A DNA stretch of 64,000 bases from Thraustochytrium sp. TN22 (taxonomy: Eukaryota > Sar > Bigyra > Thraustochytrida > Thraustochytriidae): positions 28,523-92,522 of the forward strand of contig JABLUY010000157.1 of assembly GCA_013306675.1 (NCBI GenBank), read 5' to 3'. Every line of letters starts with the position of its first letter. The stretch's first letter is position 1. The position numbers and the translations under genes are program-made. Of this stretch, positions 819 through 18,440 are shown in pieces. A model generated the notes under the pieces. That model saw nothing but the letters and a program-made list of their open reading frames with translations. It did not search any database and was not told the origin of the DNA.

Positions 819-2822
819 ATGGAGGCGCGCGGGCGCGCGGGCGCGCGGGCCGGCGGGCGCGTGCGGCCGCGGCCCGCGGCGCGGCTGGCGGCGCGGCGCT
901 GGTGCTCGTGGCAGGCGGCGGTGGCGGCGCGCTCGAGCCTGGCGACGGCCGTCGCGACGGCGGCGGCCGCGGCCGCGGCCGCGCCGGCGCTGGCGTCGGC
1001 GGGCGAGCTGCTGCGCGGGAGGGAGGTGCTCGTGCTGTCGGACCCGCAGTCGTGCGACGCGGCGCTGCGCAGCGACGCGGCGCTGGCCAGGGCGCGATAC
1101 GTGGGGCTCGACAGCGAGTGGCGGCCACACGAGCTGCTCGCGGGCGGCGAGGTGGCGGCGGGCGGCGCCGAGCAGCAGCAGCAGCAGCAGCACAACCCGA
1201 CGTCCGTGGTGCAGATTGCGACACACGAGCGCGTGTACGTGGTGCAGGTGCTGGAATGCCTGAAGAGGGGCGCCTTTCCGGAGGCGCTGCGCGAGCTGCT
1301 GGCGTCCAGCCGCTGCATCAAGGTTGGCCTGGCGGTCAACAACGACGTGCGCAAACTCTGGAGCGACCATGGCGTGCGCGTGGCCTGCACGATCGATCTC
1401 AACGACCTCGTGCCGACGCGCCAGCCCATCTCACTCGCAAACCTCTCCGAGGTCGTGCTTGGCGTGCGACCCGAGAGCAGCGCCACCATGACGGACTGGG
1501 CCGCGCCCGTGCTCTCGGCGGCCCAGGTGCAGTACGCGGCGCTTGACGCCTGCCTCGTGCGCGACGTCTATGAACGCTTCGAGTGGGGCGGCCTGGCGCT
1601 TTCAGCGGCGGACGTTGAGCGCGCGCGGCGCGATGCGCGCGCGCGGCGCAGGGCGCAGCGCATCTTGGAAGACGCCATACAGGACTCCACGGCGCTGGAT
1701 GATTCCGGCGCTGCCGGCGGCTGGGACGCCGGCACACTCACAGTCGGCACGCTCAAGCGCGGCCTCTACGACGGCATCGAACTCCAGGCGCCCGACGGCG
1801 AGGTGCTGGCCCTCATCCCCGTGCAGAAGATGCGCTGGTACCTGGGCAAGAACCTCGCGACCGAGGCAGAGCCCACCGGCCGCGTCCCAGGCGCCGCGCG
1901 AGCCGTGCGACTCAAGTTCGAACCGGCCAGCCGCAGCACGCCCAACCGCCGCCTGCAGCTCCAGGTCAAGGAGAACCAGTGCGTCGTCTGCGGCGCCATG
2001 CGCGACCTCGCACGCTTCTACATTGTCCCGCAGGTCTTCCGCCGCCAGTTTCCGCACGCCTACAAGACGCACATCTCCCACGACATCGTGCTCATGTGCT
2101 CGCGCTGCCACGGCCATGCGCGCGCCGCGGCGCGCGCCTTCCGCATCCAGCTCTACGAGGAAACCTTTGGCGAGAACCTCGAGCACCTCGACAATCTCAC
2201 CGCCATACCGGTCGCCGAGCGCCGCGCAGCCTCGCTTGCGCACAAGGCCGCCTACGCCCTGCTCAACTACGAGGACTCCATGCCCGTGGAGAGACGCGAC
2301 CAGCTGCGCAACGAGATTCGCGTCCACTACCCCGGCGGCATCGAGTCCTTCGACCGTGCCACGCTTCGCCGCGTCGAGGAGGAGACACAGCTCAGCGGCT
2401 CGCGCGCCCAGGCTTGGACCATCTCCTCGCTTCCGGCATCCTACTTTGTCAAGCATATACTCGCGCCGCACAATGACGACCCCAAGGCCGAGTACGCCGC
2501 GCTACACGCCTTCATCCTGCGCTGGCGCCGTCTCTTCCTGGAAACCAGCCAGCCCTGCTTCCTCCCGCCCCACTGGACCTTGGACAATCCCATCACCAAC
2601 ACCCTGCCCGAAGACGCCCTCGCCGCGGCGCTCCTTCGCCGCCAGCCGCCAAACAGCCACGACGACGAAGACGACGTCTTTAGCGACGACCCAGACGACG
2701 AAGAAGAAGATGAAGATGAAGGAGAAAACCACGATGACATGCTCGCCTACCCGCAGCGAGTCGCCGCCGCTGGCACGGCGAAACAACAACGCAGCCTCAG
2801 CGACAGCGACCTGAGGCCGTGA
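819..2822 (+). CDS. EXD2: EXD2-like 3'-5' exonuclease (DEDDy)
   Basis: DnaQ-fold exonuclease related to EXD2, a mitochondria- and nucleus-linked nuclease acting on RNA and DNA. Counting from the upstream ATG at 507, acidic motif I is D202-S-E204, motif II contains D280 within AVNNDVRKL, and motif III is Y343-A-A-L-D347, the DEDDy signature. After the nuclease comes the second EXD2 region: a KMRWYLGKNL stretch, then a CxxC (492/495) and CxxCH (531-535) pair spaced like a zinc site, with the SHDIVLMC segment typical of EXD2. The start at 819 is preferred because it gives an Arg-rich then hydrophobic N-terminus (a plausible organelle or membrane signal); 507 would add 104 low-complexity residues. 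The C-terminus is a strongly acidic Asp/Glu tail and a short poly-Gln lies inside the nuclease domain. No intron is needed. The A1 gene converges on it 266 bp downstream. Confidence 0.85.
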   Translation: MEARGRAGARAGGRVRPRPAARLAARRWCSWQAAVAARSSLATAVATAAAAAAAAPALASAGELLRGREVLVLSDPQSCDAALRSDAALARARYVGLDSEWRPHELLAGGEVAAGGAEQQQQQQHNPTSVVQIATHERVYVVQVLECLKRGAFPEALRELLASSRCIKVGLAVNNDVRKLWSDHGVRVACTIDLNDLVPTRQPISLANLSEVVLGVRPESSATMTDWAAPVLSAAQVQYAALDACLVRDVYERFEWGGLALSAADVERARRDARARRRAQRILEDAIQDSTALDDSGAAGGWDAGTLTVGTLKRGLYDGIELQAPDGEVLALIPVQKMRWYLGKNLATEAEPTGRVPGAARAVRLKFEPASRSTPNRRLQLQVKENQCVVCGAMRDLARFYIVPQVFRRQFPHAYKTHISHDIVLMCSRCHGHARAAARAFRIQLYEETFGENLEHLDNLTAIPVAERRAASLAHKAAYALLNYEDSMPVERRDQLRNEIRVHYPGGIESFDRATLRRVEEETQLSGSRAQAWTISSLPASYFVKHILAPHNDDPKAEYAALHAFILRWRRLFLETSQPCFLPPHWTLDNPITNTLPEDALAAALLRRQPPNSHDDEDDVFSDDPDDEEEDEDEGENHDDMLAYPQRVAAAGTAKQQRSLSDSDLRP

Positions 2823-3088
2823 GTAATCTAAACAAATCTTTACAGCGCAGGATGATAGCGTCTGGCCACGAATGTGCACCCCCAAGGGGCTTTTACTCTC
2901 GGAAATAGTGTCGTGAGACAGTGTCTGAGAATTTGCCTTCAGGTAGCTCGAGACGGCCTTTTCCAGCTCCTAGCCTAGACTCAGCGCTTACAAGGGTACA
3001 AGTTGCACGGACGGTTGCCACATTCATTTTTATCTCCCCCGCCCTTCCCCCTGGGTACGCCAGTGCGCTCCGCCGCGCCAGAGTCACT
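2823..3088. other. Convergent intergenic region
   Basis: Shared 3' region of the convergent EXD2-like and A1 genes. It is less GC-rich than the coding DNA around it. I see no gene, RNA structure or repeat. Confidence 0.6.
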
Positions 3089-6000
3089 TCACGTCAGTGG
3101 ACGCAGTACGGAGCGAAGGCATTCTACAGCGAGGTCGAGGTCGACGTCCTTGGCCTTGATCTGCTTGGCAAGACGCCGTGAAAAACGTTTGATAATGGAC
3201 CGTTGCCACAGGTTCTTGTCGTCGCCCTCTTCCGAAACTGCCTCGCTAAACTCGTTCTCGTCCGGATCCGCATCCGTCGCACTCTCCGCATCCGTCGCAT
3301 ACGCCGCATCCGTCGCATTCTCCGGTTCAGTTGTGCCCACTAGACCTTCCCATTCCTTGTCGTTGATGGACTCCAGAAAGGTGAGCAGCTTGCTCACGAC
3401 CGAGTCGCCAGTGACGTGATAAAGGTCGTCGAGAAATGAGGTGAGAACTGGTGGCGACGAAAACCGACCCCGAGAAATCTCGGTCTCAAGACGATTGGCC
3501 ATGTTCTCCACATCTTCACGGCTCAGTTGCGAATCCTGCTTCCTGAGCCAGGTCCTGATCTGAGATAGAGGCACAGGCCATTCAGGTCTTGAGGGAGGTT
3601 CATCTGACTTCGAGATTTGTACGCGGGCCTCGTTGTCGTCCGGCTTCTTGCGCTCCGGAGAGAAAAGCGAATGAGGGTCCATCGTCTCTGCTTGGCCCGC
3701 CTTGTCTATCACCTCTCCTGCCACGAAAGTAACTCTCTTGCGCTTGCTCCGCTTCGCCCTGTTCTCTGCTCGAAGACGCTTTCCCCGGTCTGCAATGTCC
3801 ACCTGCCCACGCACTCGCCTAGGTTTACGGCGAGGAACATCTTCATCCTCGTCCGATTCGCGCTCTTCGCGCTCTTCGCGCTCTTCGCGCTCTTCGCGCT
3901 CTTCGATACTTCGACGAGGGCGCCTCCTAACACTCTTTGGGGAATCCACGGGAGTCCTCTCTTTGGCGGCCACAGTGCCGATAAAGAGTTGGTTCCACTT
4001 CTCGTCCGTCAGGTCATGCAGAACGACCAGAACGCGCTCCTCCGTGCACGTGGTGTCAATGCCGAGGTTAAAGGCGTCGAGCATGTCGTTGAGGGTGGGC
4101 GGGGGGGCGTCTCCTCCTCCACGATTTATCTCCGCCTCGAGACGCTTCGCCACATCAACCTTGTCTGGGAGGCTCAGCTGCACATTTTGTTGGTCGAGCC
4201 AGGCCTTGACCTGGCCAAGGGACACGTGGCCCGCCCTGTTCGACAGGCAGTCCCCTCGATCCCACTCTAATTGTACCTGCTTCGCGCGGGCCTCTCGCGC
4301 GAGCTCGACGAGCTTCTTTCTGTTGTTGGCTAGGTTTTGAGACTTGACAGCCTCTGAAGCAGCTTCGAGAAAGCCCGGGATGGCCTTGTCGCCAAGCTGG
4401 AGTGCCGCGCGTTGTACCTCGGGCGTCGCCAGGACGAACCTGGAGAGGGCGTCTGGCAGCGAGACGATCGGGCGCTGTTCCTTTGGGTCTGTCTTGCCCG
4501 GGAAGGCGCTCTTGTAGAAAGGCTTGTCGTTGAACTCGTGCTCGATGCGCCCCAGGCTCTGCAGAATACGCGTCTGGTCCAGTCGCGGCTCGGACTTGCG
4601 CAGGTACACCAGATTCGTGAGCTGGATGGTGCGGCACTTGGACTCCACGTCCGCCTGCTTGAGCAGCTGCTTTCCCACGATGGCCAGCTTCAGAGGAAGC
4701 GTCTCGTAGTTGCGGTTCTCCTTGAGCGCCCCATCCTCCTTCTTACCGAGTCGCACCTCGTGCAGGTGGCGCGCAAGGCTGAGTGTGGCTTTGATGTCCA
4801 TGAAACGTGGGATGCCAATCGCGAAGACCCCGCCGCCCACGACTTCAATCACGTTGCGGTCTTCGCCCTCGTCGTCGAGCGTGCTCGATCCTTGGCTTTT
4901 GACCTTGCGCTTGTCCCCCCCTTTTCCTTTGCGGCCCTTCTTGACCTTGGCGCTGAGGATGGCTCGGGCCTCCCGCTTGGCGCGAGTGAGAATCACATTG
5001 TGAAGCTCGAATCGATGTTCCGGCTTGAGGAGGCACTTTTCATTGGCCTCGCTGATGTTGAGCGTAACGAAGGTGTCGACGAACTTGTCCATGTTGTCGA
5101 TCTTGTTGAGCGCCTTGAGGACCTTGCTGTTGAAGTAGAGCTTCGGCCTCCTAAACTCGTCGGAGATTCGCGAGTGGTTGTAGATCGCGCAAGTGATGAC
5201 TGTTGCAGCAGATTCGTTCAGCGCAGCGCCGTACTGAGCCATCCACTTGGCGATCTTGCCGTGGCCCACGTTGATGCTTTTGCGCGAGTCCTCGCTCTCG
5301 CGGGCGGCGTAGTCGTTCAGGACGATCGTGAAGCTTGAGTGGGGTTGTTCCAGGATCATCTTGAGCTTGGTCACGTAGTTCTCGTGCAGGGCGGTCGGCG
5401 GTCTGTTGGTGACGACGGCGCGCACGACCGCTTCCCTGGAACCCATACCTTGCGCAGCGCCTGGGTCAGCTGCTGCTGCCAGCGAAAAGGCTCTTGGCGC
5501 TGCGAGAAGCCCAGACGGTAGTCTGCTTGCGCTGTCCGACTGCTCAGCAGCCTCTGCGGCTGCCGCGGCCTCCTGGTCACGCTTGAACTTCTCGAGCCTG
5601 GCTTGCGAGAGAGGGAAATCGCTGCGCGGGAACTCGACGATTTCTGGCTTCGTGTCGCTCTTGATCTCGTCCGTATTTTCATGTGCAACAACGAGAATGC
5701 GACCGTCCTTGTCGTCCTTCTCCCTTTCTTCACTGTACGGACCATAAAGGTAGTAGCCCTGCCGTGGGAGGATGTCCACCTCCTTGAAGGCGTCGCCCAT
5801 ATGATTGCTCAAGACGTATTGGGCGCTCGGCGTCGCTGTCACAAAGGTGACGTCCTCCCACTGCCGTACCTCAGCTCGCACGCCCTCGGCAAACTTGGTT
5901 CCGCCCATCCCTTCGCGGCTCTCATCCAGGACAAGATGCGTAGTCTCGGACTTGAACTCTTCTCCCAGCTTGCCCCGGAAGAGCTCGTCCAGGGAGCGCA

Positions 6001-7606
6001 GACCAGCAACACTCGCGAGGCGCACGTTGAAGTGCACGGAGTAGCCGCGGTCCTTGATGTCAGGAAGGTGGATCGTCTGGTTGAGCCTGCTGAAAATGAA
6101 GGCCTTCTCAGGGAGCCACTCGCCCGTGCTCAGGTTCATACGGAGAATCTTGGACACCTTCGAGTGGTACTCCTTGTTCATGTCGGTCAGCGCACTCTCC
6201 ATGTCGCGATACGACGCAATCTGTGAGTTCGCAAGCACTACAACATGCTTGCGATGCACGCCGCCGTGCATGAAGCCACGCAGGAAGATAGCGCGCCGCG
6301 TCTTGCCGCCCTGCATGATGGAGGAGACCACCGCGCGTCCGCGGCGCCAGAAGGTCTTGAACACTTCCGACGTTGGGTCAACGAGGTCTGCTGCCTCGAA
6401 GTCATCCGCCATCATGACGTAGCCGATGCGAATATGAATGATGGAGCGCAGCTTCTCCTCGTTGTTTGCGCGCGGCGCCTCCAGCAGGCGCCCAATCTCT
6501 TCTATCACAGGGACGCACTCCAGGTAGGCGATATCGCCCATCTTGAACGCCTTGCCGACCGACCTATCGTCGAAGCGCACGCCAGCGAAGTAGCCGCGTG
6601 CGAAAGCCCTATCCAAGTCCGACTCTGGCTGCTCCTCAGAGTCCGACCCACTCGAGTCGTCACTCAAGTCGTTGGCATCCTCGTACTGTAAGTCCGAGTC
6701 GTCGCTGATGTCCACATCAGACTGACTGTCCGAGGATTCAGATGACTCCTCGGCACCTAAACTCAAATCCTTGGCCTCGGCAACGGTCTCCTGCGCGCCG
6801 CCCTCATCACCAGGCACTACCACAACATCTCTCATGGGCTCACCGGTAAAGGCGACCTCAGAAGGGCCAATGGCAGGGGCAGAGCCGCTCTCGACGCTAT
6901 CGCGAGCAGCATCAGCAAGAGTCCGCTGCAGCGAGGCCAGCTTCGAGGCCGACAGAGCGCCCGCTCCGAGCCGCAGCTCCGTAAGCGCGCGCCCATCGTG
7001 GCGGCGTTTCAGGGCCGCCTCGACGAGCTTCCCCGTTGCGGACGCCCCAATGTTGTTATCGTCGCACAAGACGCTTTGCAGCGCGCTAGCTGGGTGCACG
7101 AGGGCCTTGCACAGCTCCTGGGCGTCGTCATCCTCGAGTCCGCAGCTGGCAACGTCAAGTGTTGTGAGCTTGATTGTCGCCGAGAAGAAGCGGTCCGCCG
7201 GCAGGCCGCAGAGGTCGTTGCGCGCCAGCCGAAGCTCGCGAAGGTGCACGTTCATGCCCTCCTTGAGAAGTTGCGCCACGAGTAGCGCGCCATCTGCAGA
7301 AATTTCGTTCACGCTCAGGTCCAGCACCTCAACACGCGAGCGGGCCAGACCCTTGATCAGGATCTGCAGAGCGCGGTCATCCACCTTGTTATCCGCCAGC
7401 TCCAACACACGAACTTTGCAGCCCTTCTGTACAAGGACACGCCGGAGCACGTCCAGGTCGAAGGCCGCCAGGCACAGCCCCGCGCCGCGGACGCGGTCCA
7501 GCTCGCCCAGGTGCCGGCACATGAGCCCCTCGTACCGCTCCGCGAGCCGCGCCAGCAGCAGCCGCACGGACACCGCCGGAATCGTCGCGTCGATGCCGTC
7601 AGCCAT
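3089..7606 (-). CDS. LRR - Z1-type SF2 helicase fusion, copy A1
   Basis: A 1505-residue protein. Residues ~10-300 are RNI-like leucine-rich repeats (LRELRLARNDLCGL type). An acidic Ser/Asp/Glu linker follows. Residues ~400-620 form a helicase N-lobe: Walker A in SIMQGGKTRRA (K435), Walker B VLDES (D561, E562) and motif III TATPSAQ (590-593), followed by LPRQGYYLYG. The second lobe has VVGGGVFAIGIP (~923-934) and a LQSLGRI arginine-finger-like motif (Q1016, R1020). The QxGKT, TATPxA, LP...GYxxG and GGxxxxxG series resembles Z1 helicases, which occur in bacterial MORC/restriction-type defence loci (family knowledge; assignment by eye). The tail holds two copies of one module (1129-1211 and 1348-1425) joined by an Arg/Glu-rich basic linker. 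The start at 7606 matches the A2 start; an open frame extends to 7717. It is divergent from B1. Its biological role is unknown. Confidence 0.8.
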   Translation of the reverse strand: MADGIDATIPAVSVRLLLARLAERYEGLMCRHLGELDRVRGAGLCLAAFDLDVLRRVLVQKGCKVRVLELADNKVDDRALQILIKGLARSRVEVLDLSVNEISADGALLVAQLLKEGMNVHLRELRLARNDLCGLPADRFFSATIKLTTLDVASCGLEDDDAQELCKALVHPASALQSVLCDDNNIGASATGKLVEAALKRRHDGRALTELRLGAGALSASKLASLQRTLADAARDSVESGSAPAIGPSEVAFTGEPMRDVVVVPGDEGGAQETVAEAKDLSLGAEESSESSDSQSDVDISDDSDLQYEDANDLSDDSSGSDSEEQPESDLDRAFARGYFAGVRFDDRSVGKAFKMGDIAYLECVPVIEEIGRLLEAPRANNEEKLRSIIHIRIGYVMMADDFEAADLVDPTSEVFKTFWRRGRAVVSSIMQGGKTRRAIFLRGFMHGGVHRKHVVVLANSQIASYRDMESALTDMNKEYHSKVSKILRMNLSTGEWLPEKAFIFSRLNQTIHLPDIKDRGYSVHFNVRLASVAGLRSLDELFRGKLGEEFKSETTHLVLDESREGMGGTKFAEGVRAEVRQWEDVTFVTATPSAQYVLSNHMGDAFKEVDILPRQGYYLYGPYSEEREKDDKDGRILVVAHENTDEIKSDTKPEIVEFPRSDFPLSQARLEKFKRDQEAAAAAEAAEQSDSASRLPSGLLAAPRAFSLAAAADPGAAQGMGSREAVVRAVVTNRPPTALHENYVTKLKMILEQPHSSFTIVLNDYAARESEDSRKSINVGHGKIAKWMAQYGAALNESAATVITCAIYNHSRISDEFRRPKLYFNSKVLKALNKIDNMDKFVDTFVTLNISEANEKCLLKPEHRFELHNVILTRAKREARAILSAKVKKGRKGKGGDKRKVKSQGSSTLDDEGEDRNVIEVVGGGVFAIGIPRFMDIKATLSLARHLHEVRLGKKEDGALKENRNYETLPLKLAIVGKQLLKQADVESKCRTIQLTNLVYLRKSEPRLDQTRILQSLGRIEHEFNDKPFYKSAFPGKTDPKEQRPIVSLPDALSRFVLATPEVQRAALQLGDKAIPGFLEAASEAVKSQNLANNRKKLVELAREARAKQVQLEWDRGDCLSNRAGHVSLGQVKAWLDQQNVQLSLPDKVDVAKRLEAEINRGGGDAPPPTLNDMLDAFNLGIDTTCTEERVLVVLHDLTDEKWNQLFIGTVAAKERTPVDSPKSVRRRPRRSIEEREEREEREEREERESDEDEDVPRRKPRRVRGQVDIADRGKRLRAENRAKRSKRKRVTFVAGEVIDKAGQAETMDPHSLFSPERKKPDDNEARVQISKSDEPPSRPEWPVPLSQIRTWLRKQDSQLSREDVENMANRLETEISRGRFSSPPVLTSFLDDLYHVTGDSVVSKLLTFLESINDKEWEGLVGTTEPENATDAAYATDAESATDADPDENEFSEAVSEEGDDKNLWQRSIIKRFSRRLAKQIKAKDVDLDLAVECLRSVLRPLT

Positions 7607-8014
7607 GGTGGTGGTTTTGCACAGCGCCCGCGCCTGCGTGGCACGCCGCGTGCTTGTGGGGCCTGAGCAACACAGCGAAGAGGCGGCCGCGCTGTCCTTG
7701 CCCGGTTGCTCGCCCAACTTCCGCGTGCCAGCCCTCGGTGTACTCGCTCGCGCAGGGCTGCTGCCGGGCCGCGGCCGCGCGGCGCCGCCTCCGGGCCGCA
7801 GCCGCGCGCGCCTTCGTCGGGTCGCCGCGGCCGCTGCCGGCGACGCGCGACTTCGAGGTTTATTTCAAAACATCCCCTGCCTCTCTCCAGTCGTCGTCAT
7901 CAGGTGAGGCAGAATGATTTGTTGACGCCACGTGGCACCACTGCCTGCCGACAAGGCGCGCGCCGAAGCCCCTTTCGCGCCAGCTTAGCAGTGCCCTTTC
8001 TGAGCTTGGCGCCG
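7607..8014. promoter_or_regulatory. Candidate bidirectional promoter of A1/B1
   Basis: 408 bp separate the chosen ATGs of the divergent A1 and B1 genes, so both promoters must lie here or overlap the genes. Both frames stay open for some distance into it, but the encoded extensions are Arg/Pro-rich and are not conserved between the copies. The equivalent A2/B2 region is 342 bp. I see no certain TATA box; an AT-richer TTTATTTC stretch lies near 7860. Confidence 0.5.
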
Positions 8015-9658
8015 ATGTTGCCGTCGCCGCAGCCGCCGCCGCCGCCGCCGTCGCCGACGCTGCCTCTGACGCCGCTGCAGCACCAGGGGCAGGACGGACA
8101 GGACCAGCGGGACCACCAGGACGAGCAACAGCGAGATGATGACCTGCCGCTGTCGCTGCGGCAGCCGACAACGCCGACGCTGCCTCTGACGCCGCTGCAG
8201 CACCAGGGGCAGGACCGAGAGGACCAGCGAGACCACCAGGACAATCTACAGCGAGATGATGACCTGGACAACACTAACCAGAGCGACCCTGACGACTACA
8301 ACAGACCAGCAGACCAGGGTCTACTTCTCGACGAATTGGGCCTTGACGAATTTGTCCTTTTGCCTCCCATTGTGGTGTCAGATCAATCGGGCGGTGTGAA
8401 CGAAGTGCAGGAGCAAGAGCAAGGATTGCAGCAGCACGAACAGGTGCATGAGCCGCTTCAGCAGCAGCAGGGACAGGGACAAGGACAGGGACAGGGCTGG
8501 GCGCACATGCTTCGGGATGATCACCAGCATCAGCTCCAGCGGGGGACAGACGAGCACCACCAGCAAGGAGTGAAGCGCCAGCGCCAGCGACAAGCTGAGG
8601 CGCCGCGAGGCCTGCATGAACAGGCGCCGGGCCACTTTAACTTCTTTACCATCGGCACGCTGGCGAAAGTTCACGGAGGCCGTCACGTGGAGTCGCTCGA
8701 GATCGCACGCACCATCTCGCACCGTGCTTTTGTGGCACTCGAGCGGGACCTCGGTATCGTTGAGCACGAAAGGGACTGTGAGTCTGTGGATCAGGTTGCC
8801 GCTGCGGTCGATCAACTTGGCCGCTATCTCAAGAGCGCTGGAGAAGGGATCTCACCAAGATTTCGCGAGGAGGTGGAGAACTCTCTGCAGTACAAACTTT
8901 ATGCTCGACTCAAGCCGCGTCTCGGCCTGAACCGTGTGCTGGCCGCCCTCGAGCATCGGATTTCAACAGTGCGGAAGCCGTCAGTTCGCTATGTGTACGC
9001 GCTGATGGCGCGCCGTTTGAGTGGCCGCCAAGACCCCGAAGAGTACTGGTCTCAGGTTGGCAATGACCGCTTGAGCATCAAAAATGCCTTGCGCGATTGT
9101 CTGCGATTTCCCTCCAACCGAATTCTCTTCCAGATCGCACTCATGATCCACACACAGCCGACGGCGGTCAAAAAAGCCTACGAACTAATCGGTGAGGGAG
9201 ATAGAGGGTCATTTACGATGGTAGAACCCGATTCATGCAGCGAGGGAGCCTTCAAGGCTGCCACTCGCATTGGGAAGAACGAAAAAGTGCTCATAGCCAT
9301 TTGCGAGCACATGTATCCGATTGGCCCAGCCTCGAAAACAACCACCTGCGAGCACTGCATTAACTGGTTCGTCGAGGCGCAGTATCATAAGTACTCAAGC
9401 CACTGCAAAGCCCGAGACGGTCGTCCGGAGCCCCTCAATCGAGTTCATCTGAATCTCTTCGACGAAATTCTCACACGCGCAGAGGATGCTTTGAGCGGCT
9501 GCAGCATCTTCACTCTTCGCGAGGTTCTTCGCCCGCTTAACTTCTCCTTTCACAACCTTCAAAGCGCCTCTGAGAACGCCTACAAGCGCGCCAACAAGCG
9601 CGCAAGTCAGCTCAACGATGCCGACGTTCCTCCTGCGAAGAAGCATAGAGGCCGTTGA
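8015..9658 (+). CDS. Orphan Cys/His-cluster protein, copy B1
   Basis: A 547-residue protein of unrecognised family. The N-terminal ~210 residues are low complexity (poly-Pro, Gln/Asp/His-rich) and include two copies of a 40-residue repeat starting TLPLTPLQHQGQD. The conserved part starts near FNFFTIGTLAKV and ARTISHRAFVAL, is largely helical in character, and aligns along its length with B2. Near the C-terminus is a conserved cluster C430-x-H432 ... C445-E-H447-C448 ... C464, with a YPIGP loop between, which could bind a metal (inference). The start at 8015 is the first ATG after the non-conserved upstream frame; an open frame extends back to 7706. It is divergent from A1 and convergent with A2 (42 bp between stops). 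Duplication together with A suggests the two products work together. Confidence 0.75.
   Translation: MLPSPQPPPPPPSPTLPLTPLQHQGQDGQDQRDHQDEQQRDDDLPLSLRQPTTPTLPLTPLQHQGQDREDQRDHQDNLQRDDDLDNTNQSDPDDYNRPADQGLLLDELGLDEFVLLPPIVVSDQSGGVNEVQEQEQGLQQHEQVHEPLQQQQGQGQGQGQGWAHMLRDDHQHQLQRGTDEHHQQGVKRQRQRQAEAPRGLHEQAPGHFNFFTIGTLAKVHGGRHVESLEIARTISHRAFVALERDLGIVEHERDCESVDQVAAAVDQLGRYLKSAGEGISPRFREEVENSLQYKLYARLKPRLGLNRVLAALEHRISTVRKPSVRYVYALMARRLSGRQDPEEYWSQVGNDRLSIKNALRDCLRFPSNRILFQIALMIHTQPTAVKKAYELIGEGDRGSFTMVEPDSCSEGAFKAATRIGKNEKVLIAICEHMYPIGPASKTTTCEHCINWFVEAQYHKYSSHCKARDGRPEPLNRVHLNLFDEILTRAEDALSGCSIFTLREVLRPLNFSFHNLQSASENAYKRANKRASQLNDADVPPAKKHRGR
8054..8273 (+). repeat. 120-bp in-frame tandem repeat in B1
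   Basis: Two adjacent copies of a 120-bp sequence begin at about 8054 and 8174, both starting cgacgctgcctctgacg. They encode a 40-residue Gln/Asp/His-rich unit repeated twice. B2 has no such unit, so the expansion arose after the cassette duplication or was lost from B2. Confidence 0.85.
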
Positions 9659-9700
9659 AGTAGCCAAGGTTTTGCGATCAAAAGAAACGTGAATTTCTCT

Positions 9701-12700
9701 TTATCGAAGTGGTATAAAGTGCGGCCCGGCATCGCCGAGGCGCTTGTTGGCCGCGCTGATCATCTTCTTGAGGCGCTTCTGGATCTCGTTGCGCATCTCC
9801 TCGTCCGTCATCTTCTCGGTAGTGGCCTTCTTCCCACACTTGCGGAGGGCCTCGACAAGCCCTGCGACATCGCCCCAGGCATCTAGAAAGCAGCTTCCAG
9901 GGAGCTTGCGTAAGTCTTCTGACGTGAGCGCAAGCCGGCTCTTGCCAGTCACCTTGCGTTTGCCGCCTGGGTTTTCAACCTTGAATCGCTCCAGCAGAAC
10001 CTTGTCGAAGTACTTGAGGAAGAACCTGTTGAGGGGGGGCTTGGTTCGGGACTTGCTTCGGCGCACTGGCTTATCTTCATCTTCCTCATCTTCATCTTCG
10101 CTCTCAGTCTCGACGACAGAGCGTCCGCGCTTCTTTGACTTGCCTGCGGTTGCGCTCGCGCCAGTGCCGACAAAGAGCTGGTTCCACTTCTCGTCCGTCA
10201 GGTCATCCAGAACGCCTAGGACGCGCTCCTCCGTGCGCGTGGCGTCGATGCCGAGGTTAAAGATGTCGAGCATATCGTTGAGGTTGGGCGGAGTGTCGTA
10301 TCCTCCCCGGTTGATCTCGGCCTCGAGACGCTTCGCCACATCTGCCTTGTCTGGGAGGCTCAGCTGCACGTCTTGTTGGTCGAGCCAGGCCTTGACCTGG
10401 CCAAGGGACACATGGCCCGCCCTGTCGGCGAGGCCGTCATCACCGTCCCGCTCAAACTGTGCCTGCTTCGCACGCGCCTCCCGCTCGAGCTCGACGAGCT
10501 TCTTGACGTTGGCTTGGATCGAGGCAGACTTGGCCGCCTCTGAAGCCGCCTCTAGAAAGCCCGGGATGGCCTTGTCGCCGAGCTGGAGTGCTGCGCGCTG
10601 TAACTGTGGCGTCGCCAGGATGAACTTGGAGAGAGCGTCTGGCAGCGAGACGACCGGGCGCTGTTCCTTTGGGTCTGTCCTGCCCGGGAAGGCGCTCTTG
10701 TAGAAGGGTTTGTCGTTGAACCCGTGATCGATGCGCCCCAGGCTCTGCAGAAGGCGCGTCTGATCTAGTCGCGACTCGAACTTGCGCAGGTACACCAGGT
10801 TGGTGAGCTGGATGGTGCGGCACTTGGACTCCACGTTGACCGCCTGCTTGAGCAGCTGCTTGCCCACAATGGCCAGCTTCAGAGGAAATGAATCGTAGTT
10901 GCGTCTCTCCGTGAGCGCCCCATCCTTCTTGCCGAGGCGCGCCTCGTGCAGGTGACGCGCGAGGCTAAGTGTGGCCTTGATGTCCATGAAACGTGGGATG
11001 CCAATCGCGAAGACCCCGCCGCCCACGACTTCAATCACGTTGCGGTCTTCGTCCTCGTCGTCGAGGGCGCTCAATCGTCGGTCCTTGCCCTTGCGCTTGG
11101 CCTTCTTGTCTTTGCGGCCCTTCTTGACCTTGAACTTGGCGCTGAGGATGGCTCGGGCCTCCCGCCTGGCGCGAGTGAGAATCACATTGTAAAGCTCGAA
11201 TCGATGTTCCGGCTTGAGGAGGCACTTTTGATTGGCCTCGCTGTTGTTGAGCGTGATGAAGGTGTCCACGAACTCCTCCATGTTGTCGATCTTCTTGAGC
11301 GCCTTGAGGACCTTGCTGTTGAAGTAGAGCTTCGGCTTCCTAAACTCGTCGGAGATTCGCGAGTGGTTGTAGATCGCGTACGTGATGACGGTCGCAGCAG
11401 TGTCTTCTTGCGCAGTGCCGTACTGAGCCATCCATTTGGCGATCTTGCCGTGGCCTACGTTGATGCTCATGTTCGACTCCTCGTCCTCGCGGGCACCGTA
11501 GTCGTTCAAGACGATGGTGAAGCTTGAGTGAGGCTGCTCTAGGATCATCTTGAGCTTGGTCACATAATTCTCGTCCATGGCAGTCGGCGGTCTGTTGGCG
11601 ATGACGGCACGCACAACCGCTTCCCCGGAGCCCGGCCCGTGCGCAGCGCCTGAGCCAGCTGCTGCTGCCAGCGAAAGAGCGCCAGGCGCTGCGAGAAGCC
11701 CCGTCGATGCTTTGCTTGCGCTGTCCGACTGTTCAGCAGCCTCTGCGGCTGCCGCGGCCTCCTCGTCACGCTTGAGCTTCTTGAGCCTGGCTTGCGAGAG
11801 AGGGAAATCGCTGCGCGGGAACTCCACGGTTTCTGGCTTCGTGTCGACCTTGATCTCGTCCGTATTTTCATGTGCAACAACGAGAATGCGACCGTCCTTG
11901 TCGTCCTTCTCCGGTTCTTCACTGTACGGACCATAAAGGTAGTAGCCCTGCCGTGGGAGGATGTCCACCTCCTTGAAGGCATCGCCCATGTGATTGTTCA
12001 AGACGTATTGGGCGCTCGGCGTCGCTGTCACAAAGGTGACGTCCTCCCACTGCCGTACCTCAGCTCGCACACCCTCGGCAAACTTGGTCCCGCCCATCGC
12101 TTCGTGGCTCTCATCCAGGATAAGATGCGTCGTCTCGGACTTGAACTCTTCTCCCAGTTTGCCCCGGAAAGGCTCGTCCAGGGAGCGCAGACCAGCAACA
12201 CTCGCGAGGCGCACGTTGAAGTGCACGGAAGAGTAGTCGCGGTCCTTGATGTCAGAAAGATGGATCGTCTGGTTGAGCCTGCTGAAAATGAAGGCCTTCT
12301 CCGGGAGCCACTCGCCCGTCCTCAGGCTCGTACGAAGCTTCTTGGACACCTTCGAGTGGTACTCCTTGTTCATGTCGGTCAGCGCACTCTCCATGTCGCG
12401 ATACGCCGCAACCTGTGAGTTCGCAAGCACTACAACATGCTTGCGATGCACGCCGCCGTGCATGAAGCCACGCAGGAAGATAGCGCGCCGCGTCTTGCCG
12501 CCCTGCATGATGCAAGAGACCACCGCGCGTCCGCGGCGCCAGAAGGTCTTGAACACTTCCGACGTTGGGTCAACGAGGTCTGCTGCCTCGAAGTCGTCCG
12601 CCATCATGACGTAGCCGATGCGAATGTGGATGATCGAGCGCAGCTTCTCCTCATTGTTTGCGCGCGGCGCCTCCAGCAGGCTCCCGATCTCTTCTATCAC

Positions 12701-13804
12701 AGGGACGCACTCCAGGTAGGCTTCATCGCCCATCTTGAACGCCTTGCCGACCGACTTATCGTCAAAGCGCACGCCAGCGAAGTAGCCGCGACCGAACGCC
12801 CTATCCAAGTCCGACTCCTGCTGCTCCTCGGAGTCAGACCCACTCGATTCGTCACTCGAGTCGTTGGCATCCTCGTACTGAGAGTCCGAGTCGTCGCTAA
12901 TGCTCCCAATGGACTGGCTGTCCGAGGAGTCATCGGACTCATCGGCACCCGGACTCGAGCCTTTGACATCGGGCACAGTATCTTGCGTGCTGCCCTCGCC
13001 ACCGGCCACTTCCACGACATCTTTCATGGGCTCGCCGGTGAAGGTGACCTCACAGGGGGGCGCGGCAGGGGCAGGGCCGATCGCGACGCGGCTGCGGCCG
13101 GCTACGTCAAGCGTCTGCTGCAAGGATTCTAGCTTTGAGTGCGACAGAGCGTCCGCGCCGAGCCGCAGCTCAGCAAGCGTACGCCCTTCGCTGCGCCGTG
13201 TCAGCGCCGCCTCGACGAGCTTTTCAGTTGCGGACGGCCCAATGTCGTTGTCGTCGCAAAAGACCCGTTGCAGCGCGCTAGCCGGGTGCACAAGCGCCTT
13301 GCAAAGCTCTTCTGCGGCGTCGTCCTCGAGTCCACAACCGGCAACGTCCAGCGTCGTGAGCTTGACGGCCGCTGCAAAAAAGTAGTCCGCCTGCAGGCCG
13401 CAGAGGTCGTTGCGCGCCAGACGGAGCTCGCGAAGACGCACGTTCGCGTTCTCCTTCAGAAGCTGCGCCACGAATCTCGCGCCTTCCGCAGAGACCTCGT
13501 TCGCGCTCAGGTCCAGCACCTCGACACGCGAGCCGGGCAGACCCTTGATTAAAATATCCAGCGCGCGATCGTCCACCTTATTGTTCGCCAGCTCCAGCAC
13601 GCGGACCTTGCAGCCCTCCTGCGCCAGCACGCCTCGCAGTACCTTGAGGTCGAAGGCGCCCAGGCACAGCCCCGCGCCGCGCACGTGCTCCAGCTCACCC
13701 AGGTGCCGGCACACGAGCCCTTCGTACCGCTCCGCGAGCCGCACGAGCAGCAGCCGCGCCGTTACCGCCGAGGCTTCTGCGCCGGCGCCGACGCCGCTGT
13801 CCAT
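9701..13804 (-). CDS. LRR - Z1-type SF2 helicase fusion, copy A2
   Basis: A 1367-residue paralogue of A1 with the same order: leucine-rich repeats, acidic Ser/Asp linker, helicase N-lobe with QGGKT (K437), the LILDES box and TATPSAQ, then a second lobe with VVGGGVFAIGIP and LQSLGRI. All helicase motifs are intact, so the protein is probably an active NTPase (inference). The first copy of the C-terminal module (from S1133) is present. Instead of the A1 second copy, the tail reads LNRFFLKYFDKVLLERFK and ends in a Lys-rich helix. The start at 13804 is the position equivalent to the A1 start. The frame is open to 14122, but that extension is poly-Ala/Arg and would overlap the shared promoter. It ends 42 bp from the B1 stop. 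Confidence 0.8.
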   Translation of the reverse strand: MDSGVGAGAEASAVTARLLLVRLAERYEGLVCRHLGELEHVRGAGLCLGAFDLKVLRGVLAQEGCKVRVLELANNKVDDRALDILIKGLPGSRVEVLDLSANEVSAEGARFVAQLLKENANVRLRELRLARNDLCGLQADYFFAAAVKLTTLDVAGCGLEDDAAEELCKALVHPASALQRVFCDDNDIGPSATEKLVEAALTRRSEGRTLAELRLGADALSHSKLESLQQTLDVAGRSRVAIGPAPAAPPCEVTFTGEPMKDVVEVAGGEGSTQDTVPDVKGSSPGADESDDSSDSQSIGSISDDSDSQYEDANDSSDESSGSDSEEQQESDLDRAFGRGYFAGVRFDDKSVGKAFKMGDEAYLECVPVIEEIGSLLEAPRANNEEKLRSIIHIRIGYVMMADDFEAADLVDPTSEVFKTFWRRGRAVVSCIMQGGKTRRAIFLRGFMHGGVHRKHVVVLANSQVAAYRDMESALTDMNKEYHSKVSKKLRTSLRTGEWLPEKAFIFSRLNQTIHLSDIKDRDYSSVHFNVRLASVAGLRSLDEPFRGKLGEEFKSETTHLILDESHEAMGGTKFAEGVRAEVRQWEDVTFVTATPSAQYVLNNHMGDAFKEVDILPRQGYYLYGPYSEEPEKDDKDGRILVVAHENTDEIKVDTKPETVEFPRSDFPLSQARLKKLKRDEEAAAAAEAAEQSDSASKASTGLLAAPGALSLAAAAGSGAAHGPGSGEAVVRAVIANRPPTAMDENYVTKLKMILEQPHSSFTIVLNDYGAREDEESNMSINVGHGKIAKWMAQYGTAQEDTAATVITYAIYNHSRISDEFRKPKLYFNSKVLKALKKIDNMEEFVDTFITLNNSEANQKCLLKPEHRFELYNVILTRARREARAILSAKFKVKKGRKDKKAKRKGKDRRLSALDDEDEDRNVIEVVGGGVFAIGIPRFMDIKATLSLARHLHEARLGKKDGALTERRNYDSFPLKLAIVGKQLLKQAVNVESKCRTIQLTNLVYLRKFESRLDQTRLLQSLGRIDHGFNDKPFYKSAFPGRTDPKEQRPVVSLPDALSKFILATPQLQRAALQLGDKAIPGFLEAASEAAKSASIQANVKKLVELEREARAKQAQFERDGDDGLADRAGHVSLGQVKAWLDQQDVQLSLPDKADVAKRLEAEINRGGYDTPPNLNDMLDIFNLGIDATRTEERVLGVLDDLTDEKWNQLFVGTGASATAGKSKKRGRSVVETESEDEDEEDEDKPVRRSKSRTKPPLNRFFLKYFDKVLLERFKVENPGGKRKVTGKSRLALTSEDLRKLPGSCFLDAWGDVAGLVEALRKCGKKATTEKMTDEEMRNEIQKRLKKMISAANKRLGDAGPHFIPLR

Positions 13805-13992
13805 GCACGCGAGCGGGCCTACTGCACCGGCCGCGTCAACAACCTTCGAGTCAACCTGAGCGGAGGTCGCGAAGCAGCGTCTGCACGCGCCGCGGCCCGG
13901 TCGTCCAGGGCGACCGCGCGGCCGCTGTCCTCGCTGCCGGGCCACCACTCTGCACGCGCTCAGCGCTCGCGCTCTCGGACGCCGCGGCGCGC

Positions 13993-14034
<42 letters not shown>

Positions 14035-14146
14035 GTCTGGGCAGCAAGCTTTGAGGTCTGCCCGACCGACGAACCTGCGGCGCTCCTCTTTCAGCTTTCA
14101 GCTCTTTCGCGCAAATATCCATCTGAGGTCGTCATCACCCTTGGCT
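13805..14146. promoter_or_regulatory. Candidate bidirectional promoter of A2/B2
   Basis: 342 bp lie between the divergent A2 and B2 start codons. The region contains a GCC-type triplet run at about 13990-14030, which is why both frames read through it as poly-Ala or poly-Arg. I see no clear core promoter element. Its counterpart is 7607-8014. Confidence 0.5.
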
Positions 14147-15394
14147 ATGGCATCGCCCGCGGGCCCGTCAGCTGCGCAGCCCGCCGGCGCGGCGGCGGAG
14201 CTGGCGCCGCCGCCCTGGCCTGAGTCGCCGCCGCCACCGCCGTCGGCGCCACCGGACACGAACGGCCTAGACTCGGACATGGGCGCCGGGCAGCGTGCTT
14301 ACCTTCACGAGGACTACGATACGCTCGACCTGCTCGGAATCCATAAGAAACAACAGCAAGAGGGAGAGCACGAGCAAAGGCAGGGCGCGGAGGACCGAAG
14401 CCTGATGGACTTCTTCATCCAGGAGGCGCAAAGATCTGACGATGGCGGGGAGGACCCTCTCGAGACGGCGCGCACGCTCTCGCACCGCGCGTTCGCGGCA
14501 CTCGGGCGGCACTTCGAGACCGCCAGCCGCGACGAGGCCTTTGAGGCCGTCGATCAGGTTGCCAATGCGGTCAAACAGCTCGCCATTTATCTCCATGGCG
14601 CGTCGGTGCGCACACCGGCCGAGGTCCGCCAGGACGTGGAGAATTCGCGGCAATATGTGGACTTTGCTCGCGTCGAGCCACGCATGAGGTTCAACCGGGT
14701 TCTGCGTCATCTGGAGCCTCGGGTACGAGGGGCTCCATGGCTCAAGATTACGTCGCACCACGTGTACGCGCTGCTGGCGCGCCGAATGGGAAGTGATCCT
14801 CAGGAATACTGGAAGGGCGCGGGCCGAGGGAAGGCCGGAATCAATCGGGCGATGCGCAATTGTCTCCAGAGTCCTGCGAACAGGACTCTGTTCCAGATTG
14901 CACTCATGATGCATGTACAGCCAGAGCCCGTCAGGAAGGCCTGGAATCAAGCCGGGCTGCCGGCGAATGAGTCCTACTTCATTGTGGAGCCTAGTGGCGC
15001 GTGCAGCGAAACCGCTTTTCAGGCCGCTACTCGTATCCCGGGGGACGACGCCCACGTGAGACAGAATGGCTGCCTCCTCGTGCCCATGTGCGAGCACCTG
15101 TATCTCATCGGCCCTGCTTTCAACGGCAATACTTGCGAGCACTGCGTGAATTGGTTCATCGACGAGCGGTACAAGAAGTACGGGCGGTGCTGCAGAGACG
15201 TGGCCGACGGCGGCGCCAAGGCTCCCGATGTCCTTTCCCTGGAAGTTCTCGACGATATCCTAGTCCACGCGGAGCAAGCGCTTTCCGGTTGCAGCGTCTT
15301 TACTCTCAGCAAGCTTCTTGGAGACCTTGCTTGCTCCATTCCCGGCCTGCAGAAAGCCACCGAGACCGCCTACAAGCGCCGAGATGCGCAGTAG
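14147..15394 (+). CDS. Orphan Cys/His-cluster protein, copy B2
   Basis: A 415-residue paralogue of B1. The Pro/Ala-rich N-terminus is shorter and lacks the 40-residue repeats. From ETARTLSHRAFAAL onward it aligns with B1: VDQVANAVKQL, VYALLARRM, NRTLFQIALMM, and the cluster C315-x-H317 ... C330-E-H332-C333 ... C348-C349. The spacing of the cysteines and histidines is the same as in B1, which argues for a structural or metal-binding role. The start at 14147 (MASPAG) is the first ATG after the non-conserved upstream frame that opens at 13685. No known domain is recognised. It is divergent from A2. Confidence 0.75.
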   Translation: MASPAGPSAAQPAGAAAELAPPPWPESPPPPPSAPPDTNGLDSDMGAGQRAYLHEDYDTLDLLGIHKKQQQEGEHEQRQGAEDRSLMDFFIQEAQRSDDGGEDPLETARTLSHRAFAALGRHFETASRDEAFEAVDQVANAVKQLAIYLHGASVRTPAEVRQDVENSRQYVDFARVEPRMRFNRVLRHLEPRVRGAPWLKITSHHVYALLARRMGSDPQEYWKGAGRGKAGINRAMRNCLQSPANRTLFQIALMMHVQPEPVRKAWNQAGLPANESYFIVEPSGACSETAFQAATRIPGDDAHVRQNGCLLVPMCEHLYLIGPAFNGNTCEHCVNWFIDERYKKYGRCCRDVADGGAKAPDVLSLEVLDDILVHAEQALSGCSVFTLSKLLGDLACSIPGLQKATETAYKRRDAQ

Positions 15395-16610
15395 ATTGTT
15401 CAAAACATTCGTAAATACGGGGCTCTTGTATTGGCTTGGCATGCGGGTTCCAGGTGCGATACCACTGTGGTACCCTATCCACAACTCTTTTTCAGGCATG
15501 TGGCAAACGAGAGTTTGAAAATAGCGTGACGCCTGCAGCCAGCGCTTCAAGCGCCGATCAAGGAACCTTTGCGTCGTGTCGGCACAATGCGCTTATTCTG
15601 CCTGGCCGGCGCTTCGTGACGACGTCAAAGCCTGCTCTTGCCTTGGAGCGGAGCAAACAAACCTCTGCCTCCAGAGCCGATCCCTCGCCACGTCCTCGCA
15701 AACTCTCTCTCCACCCTCCACCACGGCATGGCACGGCCAGCCAAGCGTCGACGCCCGGCGGCGTCCGCTGCGCCGTGGTCGCGACCGCCGGTGCCAGTGA
15801 GGTCTTTCCCTCTGGTCCCGACACCGGCGTCCCCGCCATGCGGCCACCCAGCCCCCTTCGCACACCCACACAGCGTCCATGCCCGTGCTCCTGATGGTGA
15901 CCATGACTGCCCGTGTCCTCCGAGTCCGGCGGCGGCCTCGCGCGAGGCGCGGCGCACCCGGTGGCCGCGGCCCCAGGCACGCGCGGGGCGGCGCCGCGGG
16001 CCCGCGGCGGCGCGCGCGGGCCCGGGCGCGGCGGCGCGCAGCGGGTCCTCTGGCACGCGCCCGCTGCGGTCACCTTCGTCATCAAGGTCCATGCCCGCCA
16101 GTGGCATGCATAACCTCATCGCCCAGTCCACTCGCGGCGGGCACGGCTCGCTGCGCGGCGGCGGCGGCGGGGGGCGCTGCGCTGCGCTGCGCTGCGCTGC
16201 GCTGCGCACGCGGCCGCTCGCTCGAGCCCGGCCGCGCCCGGCTCGCGGCGCGGCGGCGCCGGCATGGCGGGGGCACGGCGGCATGGCGGCATGACGGCCG
16301 CGCCCGCGGTGGAGTCGCGCGCGGCGGCGGCGGCGGCGGCGCGCGGCGCGCGCGGGCGCGAGCGCGGGAGCCCCCGCGCCGCGCCGCGCGGCGGCGCGCG
16401 CCGGCCAGGCCCAGGGCCCGCGCGCGCGGCGCGCGCGGCGCGGCGAAGCTCTGTGCGGCGCATCGCAGCAGGCCGCGGCGCAGCAGAGGCGCGCGAGCGG
16501 GCGGGCGCACGCCGGGCAGAGGCGCGCGCGCGGGGCGGCGGCGGCGCGCGCGGGGCGGCGGCGCGGCGGCGGGCCCGGGCCCGGGCGCCGCTGCGCGGCG
16601 CACGGCCGGC
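15395..16610. other. Intergenic region upstream of receptor gene 1
   Basis: About 1.2 kb without a supported gene. It becomes extremely GC-rich toward the receptor and holds a GCTGC-type pentanucleotide run near 16171-16206. The receptor frame is open from 15879, but that 244-codon extension is Arg/Ala/Gly low complexity and precedes a good signal peptide, so it is probably untranslated. Confidence 0.5.
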
Positions 16611-18440
16611 ATGCGGTCGCGGCGCGGCGGCGCGGTGGCCAGATCGGTTGCGGCGGCGGCGCGGGTGGCCGCGGCGGCGGTGCTGGTGCTGAGCGCGCAG
16701 GGCGAGGCGGCCGGGCAGACGGACACAGACACGTTCTCGGAGGGGCAGCAGAAGGCGATCGCGTGGACGCCCAGGTTCACCGGCGCGCTGTCGCTGGTTG
16801 GGTCGGTGTCGATCTTGGTGTCCATCGTGCGTAGGGTGCGGGGCGGCGAGGAGTCGCGGCAGTACCACCGGATCCTCTTCATGATGAGCATCTTCGACCT
16901 GCTGGGGTCGGCGTGGTTCTTCGCGTCGGCCTGGCCCATGCCGCGCGACACGGCCGACGTGTACGGCGCCATCGGGAACGTGACCACGTGCACGGTGCAG
17001 GGCTTCTTCCTGCAGTTCAACCTGGCGGTGCCTTTCTACTACACCTTTCTGTCCATCAACTACGTGCTGGCCATCCGCTACGAGTGGCGCGAGCATCGCC
17101 TGCGCCGTATTGAGCCCTACATGCACGCCTTGGCCATTCTCTTCCCGCTCGGGACGGCCTGCGCGGCTGCCGGGCTCACGCTCTTCAACGCGGCGGGCCA
17201 GTGGTGCTGGATCGCCAAGTACCCGCTGAGCTGCACCAGCTCGTCGGACGTGGACGAGGCCAACGCGAGTGTGGCCGAGTCCTGCTCGCGCGGCGACAAC
17301 GCGGCCATCTACCAGTGGGCCTTCTTCTACGCGCCGCTCTGGCTGCTCATGCTTGTTGCGCTCGTGTCCATGGTGCTCGTCTATCTGCACGTCTTCCAGC
17401 AGGAGAAGCGCGTGTCTCGCTTCGTGGCGCAGGACGTCACCAGCAGCCGCCGCTCTTTCCGCAAGTCGCAGCTCGTCGCGGTGCAGGGCGCGCTCTACGT
17501 GGCCTGTTTCTATCTGACCTGGATCTTTGGCACCATCAACCGCCTGTACCAGACCGCCACGATGCAGTCCAACTTTGCGCTCACATTTCTGCACTGCTTC
17601 TTCGTGCCGCTGCAGGGCTTTCTCAACTTCTTCGTCTACATCCGCCCGCGCTTTTACCACAGCGACTCCACCTATCGCGGCCTGCAGCACGTTTTGCACG
17701 TGCTCAGCTGCCCCTGCATGCCGGGCAACGCCTCGCCCAACAAGAGCTTCAATACGGGTCGCAGCGGCGAAAACGCGGCCCAGGGCCCCAACCCGGCCGC
17801 CAACGGGAACTCCGACGACGGCTCTGCCAAGCGCGCCAAGAATGGCGTGCGCTTTGCGTCGTTGCTCCGCAAGCATCAGACGGAAGCCAACGGCGACACG
17901 GGCGTGCACAGCAGCTCCAATAGCGTGCAAGAAATTCTGCGCTCTGCCGATGTCATCTCTCGCGCGCGCCCCGAGAACTCCACCCAGTCCTCAAGTCCCA
18001 ACAGCACGGCGCGCGCCGACCCGCTCCTCGAGGAGGACCTGGAGCAGGTCACAATACTGACCACCGCCGAGGCCGCCACCGGCGCTGATAGCGGCGAAGG
18101 CGGCGAGATTGAAAGGAGAGACAGCGAGGGGGGTGACGTTGTGCTGGACGCCGGCGAGGCCCTCAACAGCGAGGAGGCCGCCCTTGTGCGCGCGCTCGAC
18201 CGCGCTCAGGCCGCCGGGGAGGGGGCGGAAGAGGCCCCTTCGCCGCCCAGGCCGCCCGCGCCCATGCTGCGCACCGCGAGCGGCACCGACGACGAACAAC
18301 CAACCGACCTCGACGACGGCGAGGAAGAGGAGGAGGAGGTGGCGGAGGAGGCGGAGGCGGCGGAGGCGGCGGAGGAGGAGGGTATCGGGTCAGCCTCTGA
18401 CTACGCCAAGGCGTCCTCCACGACCATGCAACTGACCTGA
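16611..18440 (+). CDS. Seven-helix receptor, class E (cAMP-receptor)-like, copy 1
   Basis: A 609-residue protein. Starting at 16611 gives a clean signal peptide (Arg-rich start, then an Ala/Val core ending near GEAAGQ). Seven hydrophobic segments follow: TM1 around ALSLVGSVSILVSIV, then segments around ILFMMSIFDLLG, FLQFNLAVPFYYTFL, ALAILFPLGTACAAAG, WLLMLVALVSMVLVYL, VACFYLTWIFGTI and FVPLQGFLNFFVYI. The conserved CTVQGFFLQF before TM3 and a WCWI motif in the second outer loop are features of the Dictyostelium cAMP-receptor/GCR1-like group (family knowledge). The ~250-residue cytoplasmic tail is Ser/Asn-rich and ends in a Glu/Ala run. It is probably a G-protein-coupled plasma membrane receptor; the ligand is unknown. 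A paralogue lies at 19929-21321 on the same strand. Confidence 0.8.
   Translation: MRSRRGGAVARSVAAAARVAAAAVLVLSAQGEAAGQTDTDTFSEGQQKAIAWTPRFTGALSLVGSVSILVSIVRRVRGGEESRQYHRILFMMSIFDLLGSAWFFASAWPMPRDTADVYGAIGNVTTCTVQGFFLQFNLAVPFYYTFLSINYVLAIRYEWREHRLRRIEPYMHALAILFPLGTACAAAGLTLFNAAGQWCWIAKYPLSCTSSSDVDEANASVAESCSRGDNAAIYQWAFFYAPLWLLMLVALVSMVLVYLHVFQQEKRVSRFVAQDVTSSRRSFRKSQLVAVQGALYVACFYLTWIFGTINRLYQTATMQSNFALTFLHCFFVPLQGFLNFFVYIRPRFYHSDSTYRGLQHVLHVLSCPCMPGNASPNKSFNTGRSGENAAQGPNPAANGNSDDGSAKRAKNGVRFASLLRKHQTEANGDTGVHSSSNSVQEILRSADVISRARPENSTQSSSPNSTARADPLLEEDLEQVTILTTAEAATGADSGEGGEIERRDSEGGDVVLDAGEALNSEEAALVRALDRAQAAGEGAEEAPSPPRPPAPMLRTASGTDDEQPTDLDDGEEEEEEVAEEAEAAEAAEEEGIGSASDYAKASSTTMQLT

Follow-up and report, generated by a model that had tools for sequence, protein, structure and literature searches.

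The window analysed here, a 64,000-nucleotide stretch of Thraustochytrium sp. TN22 (contig JABLUY010000157.1, positions 28,523 to 92,522; C63 below), carries two copies of a divergent gene pair. Gene A, on the minus strand, encodes a leucine-rich repeat (LRR) followed by a helicase-like core, and gene B, on the plus strand, encodes an orphan protein. Two tandem head-to-head A/B pairs had been claimed from a sequence-only reading of this DNA, and the open reading frames and the repeats bear this out. Searches of the 37.9-Mb assembly (453 contigs) turned up three such pairs, all oriented alike and spread over two unlinked loci, whose motor bodies are of two very different kinds; judged from these comparisons, B accompanies the LRR end of A and not its motor. 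Back-to-back pairing at two separate loci suggests that the products work together. That they act as one unit is the most likely of the readings weighed below, although we hold it with somewhat less than even confidence. The genes are as follows (window positions, except for B3).

3089-7864, minus strand: A1 open frame, stop to stop (open reading frame list)
3089-7606, minus strand: A1, LRR + helicase-like core + C-terminal region, 1505 residues (likely ATG start)
6926-7435, minus strand: A1 LRR, ribonuclease-inhibitor type, limits approximate (LRR_6 above cut-off; 78% to A2 LRR)
7607-8014, no strand: A1-B1 intergenic stretch, 408 bp start to start (related to the A2/B2 intergenic stretch)
7667-9658, plus strand: B1 open frame, stop to stop (open reading frame list)
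8015-9658, plus strand: B1, orphan protein, 547 residues (likely ATG start)
9701-14131, minus strand: A2 open frame, stop to stop (open reading frame list)
9701-13804, minus strand: A2, LRR + helicase-like core, 1367 residues (likely ATG start)
13118-13633, minus strand: A2 LRR, limits approximate (LRR_6 profile and structure-database matches)
13553-15394, plus strand: B2 open frame, stop to stop (open reading frame list)
13805-14146, no strand: A2-B2 intergenic stretch, 342 bp start to start (start positions)
14147-15394, plus strand: B2, orphan protein, 415 residues (likely ATG start)
14702-14899, plus strand: B2 residues 186-251, the stretch recurring in B3 (B2/B3 match)
C422:105297-106562: B3, 422-residue frame, head-to-head with C422b across a 409-bp gap

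Each B that we found (three of three) sits head-to-head with an LRR-helicase across a gap of 342-409 bp, one of them at the unlinked contig C422. A search with the B1 protein returned 2 places, and a search with B2 gave five rows at E up to 1, three of which were counted: B2 itself, B1 and C422:106110 (E 9.1e-6). This last match is B3, whose own search returned B3 itself and B2 (E 1.5e-5); its helicase-like neighbor, C422b, starts at C422:104887. The C-terminal part of B3 aligns to B2 with a score of 110, which was reached by none of 2000 shuffles (maximum 58). Two rows on C71 (E 0.0047) and C159 (E 0.014) were discounted as B genes, as they involve the proline/alanine-rich end of B2 only (residues 5-110 and 3-57) and each match contains one internal TGA. 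At the other end of the pair, a search with the A2 LRR ranked the N-terminus of C422b third after A2 and A1 (E 2.2e-31), with the next row at 1.9e-6. The weaker rows, on C77, C445, C439, C364 and C188 (E 1.9e-6 to 7.5e-4), fall on contigs without a helicase-family match and were set aside.

The helicase-like family was gathered by searching the assembly with three cores (A2, C425b and C422a), and its counts are lower bounds, only the best candidates having been scored. It comprises at least eight genes (A1, A2, C102, C341, C425a, C425b, C422a and C422b), and among these eight an LRR was found in A1, A2 and C422b only. B adjoins all three LRR-helicases found and none of the five members found without an LRR, a pattern with a probability of 1 in 56, by our own arithmetic, if the genes are counted as independent, which the duplicates A1 and A2 are not. 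Homologues of A and B lying mostly apart had been named beforehand as the outcome that would speak against a single unit. In this genome that is not the case for B, which is paired three times out of three, and it is partly the case for A, five of whose eight family members have neither LRR nor B. Because those five helicase-family genes lack both, the co-inherited unit is B with the LRR end, rather than B with the helicase.

The two ends of the C422b protein also appear to have different histories. A2 and C422b are 41-43% identical in the LRR and 18-19% in the core, while the LRRs of A1 and A2 are 78% identical. Expressed as distances, the A2-C422b values are 1.35 for the LRR and 2.94 for the core, the opposite of the order seen between A1 and A2 (LRR 0.28, core 0.10, partly through conversion). 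Since the LRR is the closer part in one comparison and the core in the other, the LRR was probably attached to one of the two motor bodies after their split, and it would seem that B, the intergenic region and the LRR end passed as one segment to a different motor. The same picture could arise without a transfer if the C422 branch evolved very fast and C422a lost its LRR. In the family tree A1 groups with A2, C102 with C341 (74% support) and C425a with C425b (91%), and C422a and C422b form a group (100%) whose long branch attaches to C102/C341 at a weakly supported node (71%).

The chief rival to cooperation is co-inheritance without dependence, in which a tandem duplication at C63 and one linker recombination to the C422 helicase produced the three pairs and the products need not cooperate. 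We regard this as quite possible, while improbable on balance. Within A, it is the LRR that lies nearest B, and a single crossover would explain the C422 chimera with its unequal LRR and core identities. Furthermore, B evolves much faster than the LRR (amino-acid-changing divergence, dN, of 0.51 versus 0.14), with no sign of matched constraint. Divergent neighbors are also common in the window: by our own reading they make up 4 of 13 adjacent large-frame pairs, A1/B1 and A2/B2 being two of the four. Several other observations weigh against cooperation. A1 and A2 are duplicates, hence there are only two independent loci, and C341 and C102 too have divergent neighbors, which are unlike B. The B3 match is short (69-90 residues), the likeness of B3 to B1 is weak (7 of 2000 shuffles equal its score), and the cysteine/histidine (Cys/His) stretch of B1 and B2 is not recognizable in B3, where it falls in an uncertain part of the alignment. 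Finally, the intergenic region of the C422 pair shows no detectable likeness to the A1-B1 or A2-B2 stretches.

What co-inheritance alone accommodates less readily is the upkeep of the pair. B is open in all three copies found, and the ratio of dN to silent divergence (dN/dS) lies below 1 throughout the measured parts of A1/A2 (LRR 0.26, core 0.39) and in B1/B2, where the value of about 0.32 is rough because silent divergence is near saturation. Despite more than one silent change per site between B1 and B2, neither gene turned up alone in the assembly: each LRR-helicase found had a B beside it, and each B found had an LRR-helicase.

The history of the tandem pair is one of an old duplication with a young middle. 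The DNA repeats between A1 and A2 form blocks of 84-95% identity spaced by ~6.19 kb, and B1 and B2 share 43% of residues across 404 aligned codons. The A1-B1 and A2-B2 intergenic stretches are related, their alignment score being reached by none of 200 dinucleotide shuffles, with the caveat that both are GC-rich and that the reverse-strand alignment is also unusual (4/200). Taken with the repetition of A and of B, this relatedness indicates that the whole cassette was duplicated and rules out chance. A and B could have been duplicated separately, at the price of more steps, but the related intergenic stretches favor one event. Silent divergence is 1.59 in B1/B2 (near saturation), 0.55 in the LRR and 0.16 in the core, and it falls to 0.08-0.09 in three overlapping 150-codon windows in mid-A. 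This range rules out a simultaneous duplication without later exchange. Across A1 codons 402-680 there are 0.044 silent differences per same-residue codon, as against 0.189 elsewhere, and so cold a tract appeared in none of 1000 permutations (968 same-residue codons ahead of the C-terminal part). An old cassette duplication followed by gene conversion in A explains, as far as these alignments go, both the old ends and the young middle.

5567-6403, minus strand: A1 tract nearly identical to A2 at silent sites, gene-conversion-like (permutation test)

In overall architecture, A begins with an LRR, which an acidic linker connects to a core bearing superfamily 2 (SF2) helicase motifs; behind the core comes a C-terminal region, which aligns poorly between A1 and A2. 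The sequence-only reading had also held that both proteins of each unit remain open with their key motifs intact. All four genes are indeed open, each translation having a single stop, at its end. As for the motifs, the statement stands for the family motifs of A2 and, in B, for a Cys/His stretch common to B1 and B2. It does not stand for A1, which has DESR for DESH, KQADVESKC for KQAVNVESKC and EHE for DHG.

6299-6319, minus strand: A1 motif I, IMQGGKT (alignment)
5912-5929, minus strand: A1 motif II, LDESRE; DESH in A2, C102 and C341 (alignment)
4634-4660, minus strand: A1 KQADVESKC, against KQAVNVESKC; one residue missing, N to D (alignment)
4538-4564, minus strand: A1 motif VI, LQSLGRIEH (alignment)
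9302-9406, plus strand: B1 Cys/His stretch, CEH..CEHC..HC (B1/B2 comparison)
12491-12511, minus strand: A2 motif I, IMQGGKT (alignment)
12101-12118, minus strand: A2 motif II, LDESHE (alignment)
12014-12028, minus strand: A2 motif III, TATPS (alignment)
10724-10750, minus strand: A2 motif VI, LQSLGRIDH (alignment)
15089-15193, plus strand: B2 Cys/His stretch (B1/B2 comparison)

A2 carries Walker A GKT, DExH, TATP and QxxGR (in IMQGGKT, LDESHE, TATP and QSLGRIDHG) in SF2 order, the second arginine of QxxGRxxR being absent from motif VI, and it looks able to work as a motor. In each of the three tandem pairs, one gene shows the family motifs (A2, C425b, C422a) and the other is altered (A1, C425a, C422b). 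Namely, C425a lacks GKT, DE and the GR of motif VI, and in C422b PAQDTS replaces IMQGGK, so that, with its Walker A motif lost, C422b probably does without the usual use of ATP. The departure of A1 is milder than those of C425a and C422b, and the single copies C102 and C341 keep the family motifs. C422a itself has TATD in place of TATP, a weak motif VI and a third-position GC of 0.87. With dN/dS of 0.38 for C422b against C422a and 0.64 for C425a against C425b, and with open frames, the altered motor copies look kept rather than being plain pseudogenes. Faster decay of A1 than of A2 was not established. Where C102 and C341 agree, changes number 8 in A1 and 2 in A2 (binomial p 0.11); with C425b added they number 4 and 1, with C102 alone 15 and 7, and with C341 alone 10 and 10.

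Of the parts of this system, only the LRR can be named from profiles in the libraries searched; the motor and B cannot. LRR_6 scores above its cut-off in A1 and A2 and just below in C422b (22.7 vs 23.4 bits). Residues ~150-330 of the translated A2 frame resemble ribonuclease-inhibitor-type LRRs, matching 4r5d, 4r6g, ribonuclease inhibitor and NLRP14 (E 1e-12 to 2e-7). Unlike NLRP receptors and ribonuclease inhibitor, A has its LRR at the N-terminus and a helicase-like core behind it, and no NACHT was found. The core shares the motif order GKT, DExH, TATP, QxxGR with ResIII/DEAD-like SF2 helicases, and the family member C425b gives sub-threshold matches to ResIII (E 0.0017) and DEAD (E 0.03). 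Among the scanned cores none reached a helicase profile at Pfam or NCBIfam cut-off, PADLOC gave no row, and there was no helicase among the PDB profile rows, the PHROGs and PDB rows being at chance level. Because no helicase profile or structure match was significant, we use the term 'helicase-like' only. The stretches VNVESKC and SAFP..RP differ from SF2 helicases and, as far as compared here, are the family's own.

A match of the A2 core to PF00336 DNA_pol_viral_C (E 0.0095) lies under the cut-off and was rejected, as were chance rows for the cores: NCBIfam MSCRAMM and others (best 0.045), phrog_36566 (0.013) and PARP-1 in the PDB (0.69). B1, B2 and B3 gave chance-level rows only in Pfam and PHROGs (best E 0.11), and PDB rows for B as a metallo-beta-lactamase (best E 0.17) were likewise taken as chance. 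Among the papers listed from the open-licence PubMed Central literature, none describes an LRR-helicase/B pair, as judged by title and abstract start.

A viral or mobile-element origin of the cassette, with the helicase as an element gene and B as an accessory, appears very improbable. It would suit the long, intron-free frames of the window and the several scattered helicase copies, but a neighboring frame of 5313 codons is likewise uninterrupted, which makes the lack of introns uninformative. In addition, no inverted repeats of at least 60 bases occur in window bases 1-20000. No relative was found in viral contigs (helicase queries and B2; a short exact peptide scan sensitive to close relatives only), in phage records (A2 core and B2), in plasmids (C425b core only) or in bacterial and archaeal genomes (helicase alignment only); these collections hold no eukaryotic genomes, and uniqueness of the genes is not implied.

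The layout of the A/B pairs recalls plant paired nucleotide-binding LRR receptors (NLRs), which, according to PMC9528088, generally stand head-to-head and share promoter sequences. RGA4/RGA5 and RRS1/RPS4, as presented there, are head-to-head across a short intergenic region, with one partner carrying an LRR and added domains. The A/B pairs have the same orientation and short gaps (408, 342 and 409 bp). In contrast, a helicase-like motor stands in place of NB-ARC, B is unrelated to A, and the NB-ARC or NACHT with LRR expected of both partners of a paired NLR was found in neither. The likeness is one of layout only.

Could the pair nevertheless be an intracellular sensor of viruses or parasites, the LRR-helicase binding foreign nucleic acid or protein and B serving as a fast-evolving helper or decoy? 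By analogy with the plant pairs it could, and the tandem duplication, the gene-conversion-like tract, the fast B, the differing C-termini (including Armadillo repeats in C422b) and the motors with lost catalytic residues would all fit. We nonetheless think it unlikely: the domain searches of A1, A2, B1, B2, B3 and C422b revealed no NB-ARC/NACHT, CARD, TIR or other known signalling domain, dN/dS is below 1 over the measured regions, and the resemblance to plant pairs is one of logic only. Mirusviruses have been described from the thraustochytrid Aurantiochytrium limacinum (PMC12911909), which makes an antiviral role for A/B thinkable, no more.

If the A and B products do act as one unit, what is inherited together would be B, the short stretch between the genes and that part of a divergent helicase-like motor gene, its 5' end, which encodes the LRR. 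A single bidirectional control region would yield both proteins together, the LRR may bind B or something presented by B, and the LRR-B complex could place or gate the motor on nucleic acid. A2 would then serve as a motor, A1 as an altered one and C422b as a scaffold or regulator. B1 carries at its end a basic stretch, AKKHRGR, as a nuclear protein might. A broader proposal, which we offer as doubtful, is of a transferable sensor module made of two proteins, B and its LRR, that different helicase-like motors, some active and some dead, have acquired; the result would be an unrecognised paired system of intracellular surveillance or nucleic-acid control in protists. Partnership of the LRR and B would amount to the layout of a paired immune receptor with a helicase-like motor replacing the usual switch domain, and with a second protein that no library searched here names. 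Comparing the three copies, one with an apparently intact motor and two altered, could readily show why the motor is needed, and they provide definite genes for the study of nucleic-acid sensing or control in such protists.

Several minor features accompany these genes. Of the divergent neighbors of C341 and C102 (L024:478-1992 and L022:6785-7861), one gives weak leucine-zipper-like matches in Pfam and the other none; tried as B-like partners, they showed no resemblance to B (one comparison of the C341 neighbor used 464 of 505 residues). Tandem pairs of helicase-like genes lie at L026:6434-9346, L027:2000-4801, L028:1903-5901, L059:893-9769 and window 3089-13804. The C-terminus of C422a is Cys- and His-rich (L028:1906-3144), with no Pfam match at E 0.1, and the end of C422b consists of ~34 near-identical 132-bp (264-bp double) repeats forming an in-frame Armadillo-like array (C422:96435-100963; L059:936-5464). 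Scattered short DNA matches (<110 bases; 48 of 51 rows, most at query 4920-5005) were dismissed as low complexity, with the exception of two on C102, through which the helicase-like gene there was found. In the N-terminal part of B1, a 120-bp unit occurs twice in tandem (88%) at window 8026-8265, where the B1/B2 alignment has a gap in B2. Elsewhere in the window, a gene with a 3'-5' exonuclease domain (507-2822, E 4.3e-14) is convergent with A1, a PARP catalytic-domain match at 57200-59674 falls below its curated cut-off (E 5e-5, 23.3 vs 26.7 bits), and 42905-45106 encodes a protein with a PAN domain and PT-type disordered repeats.

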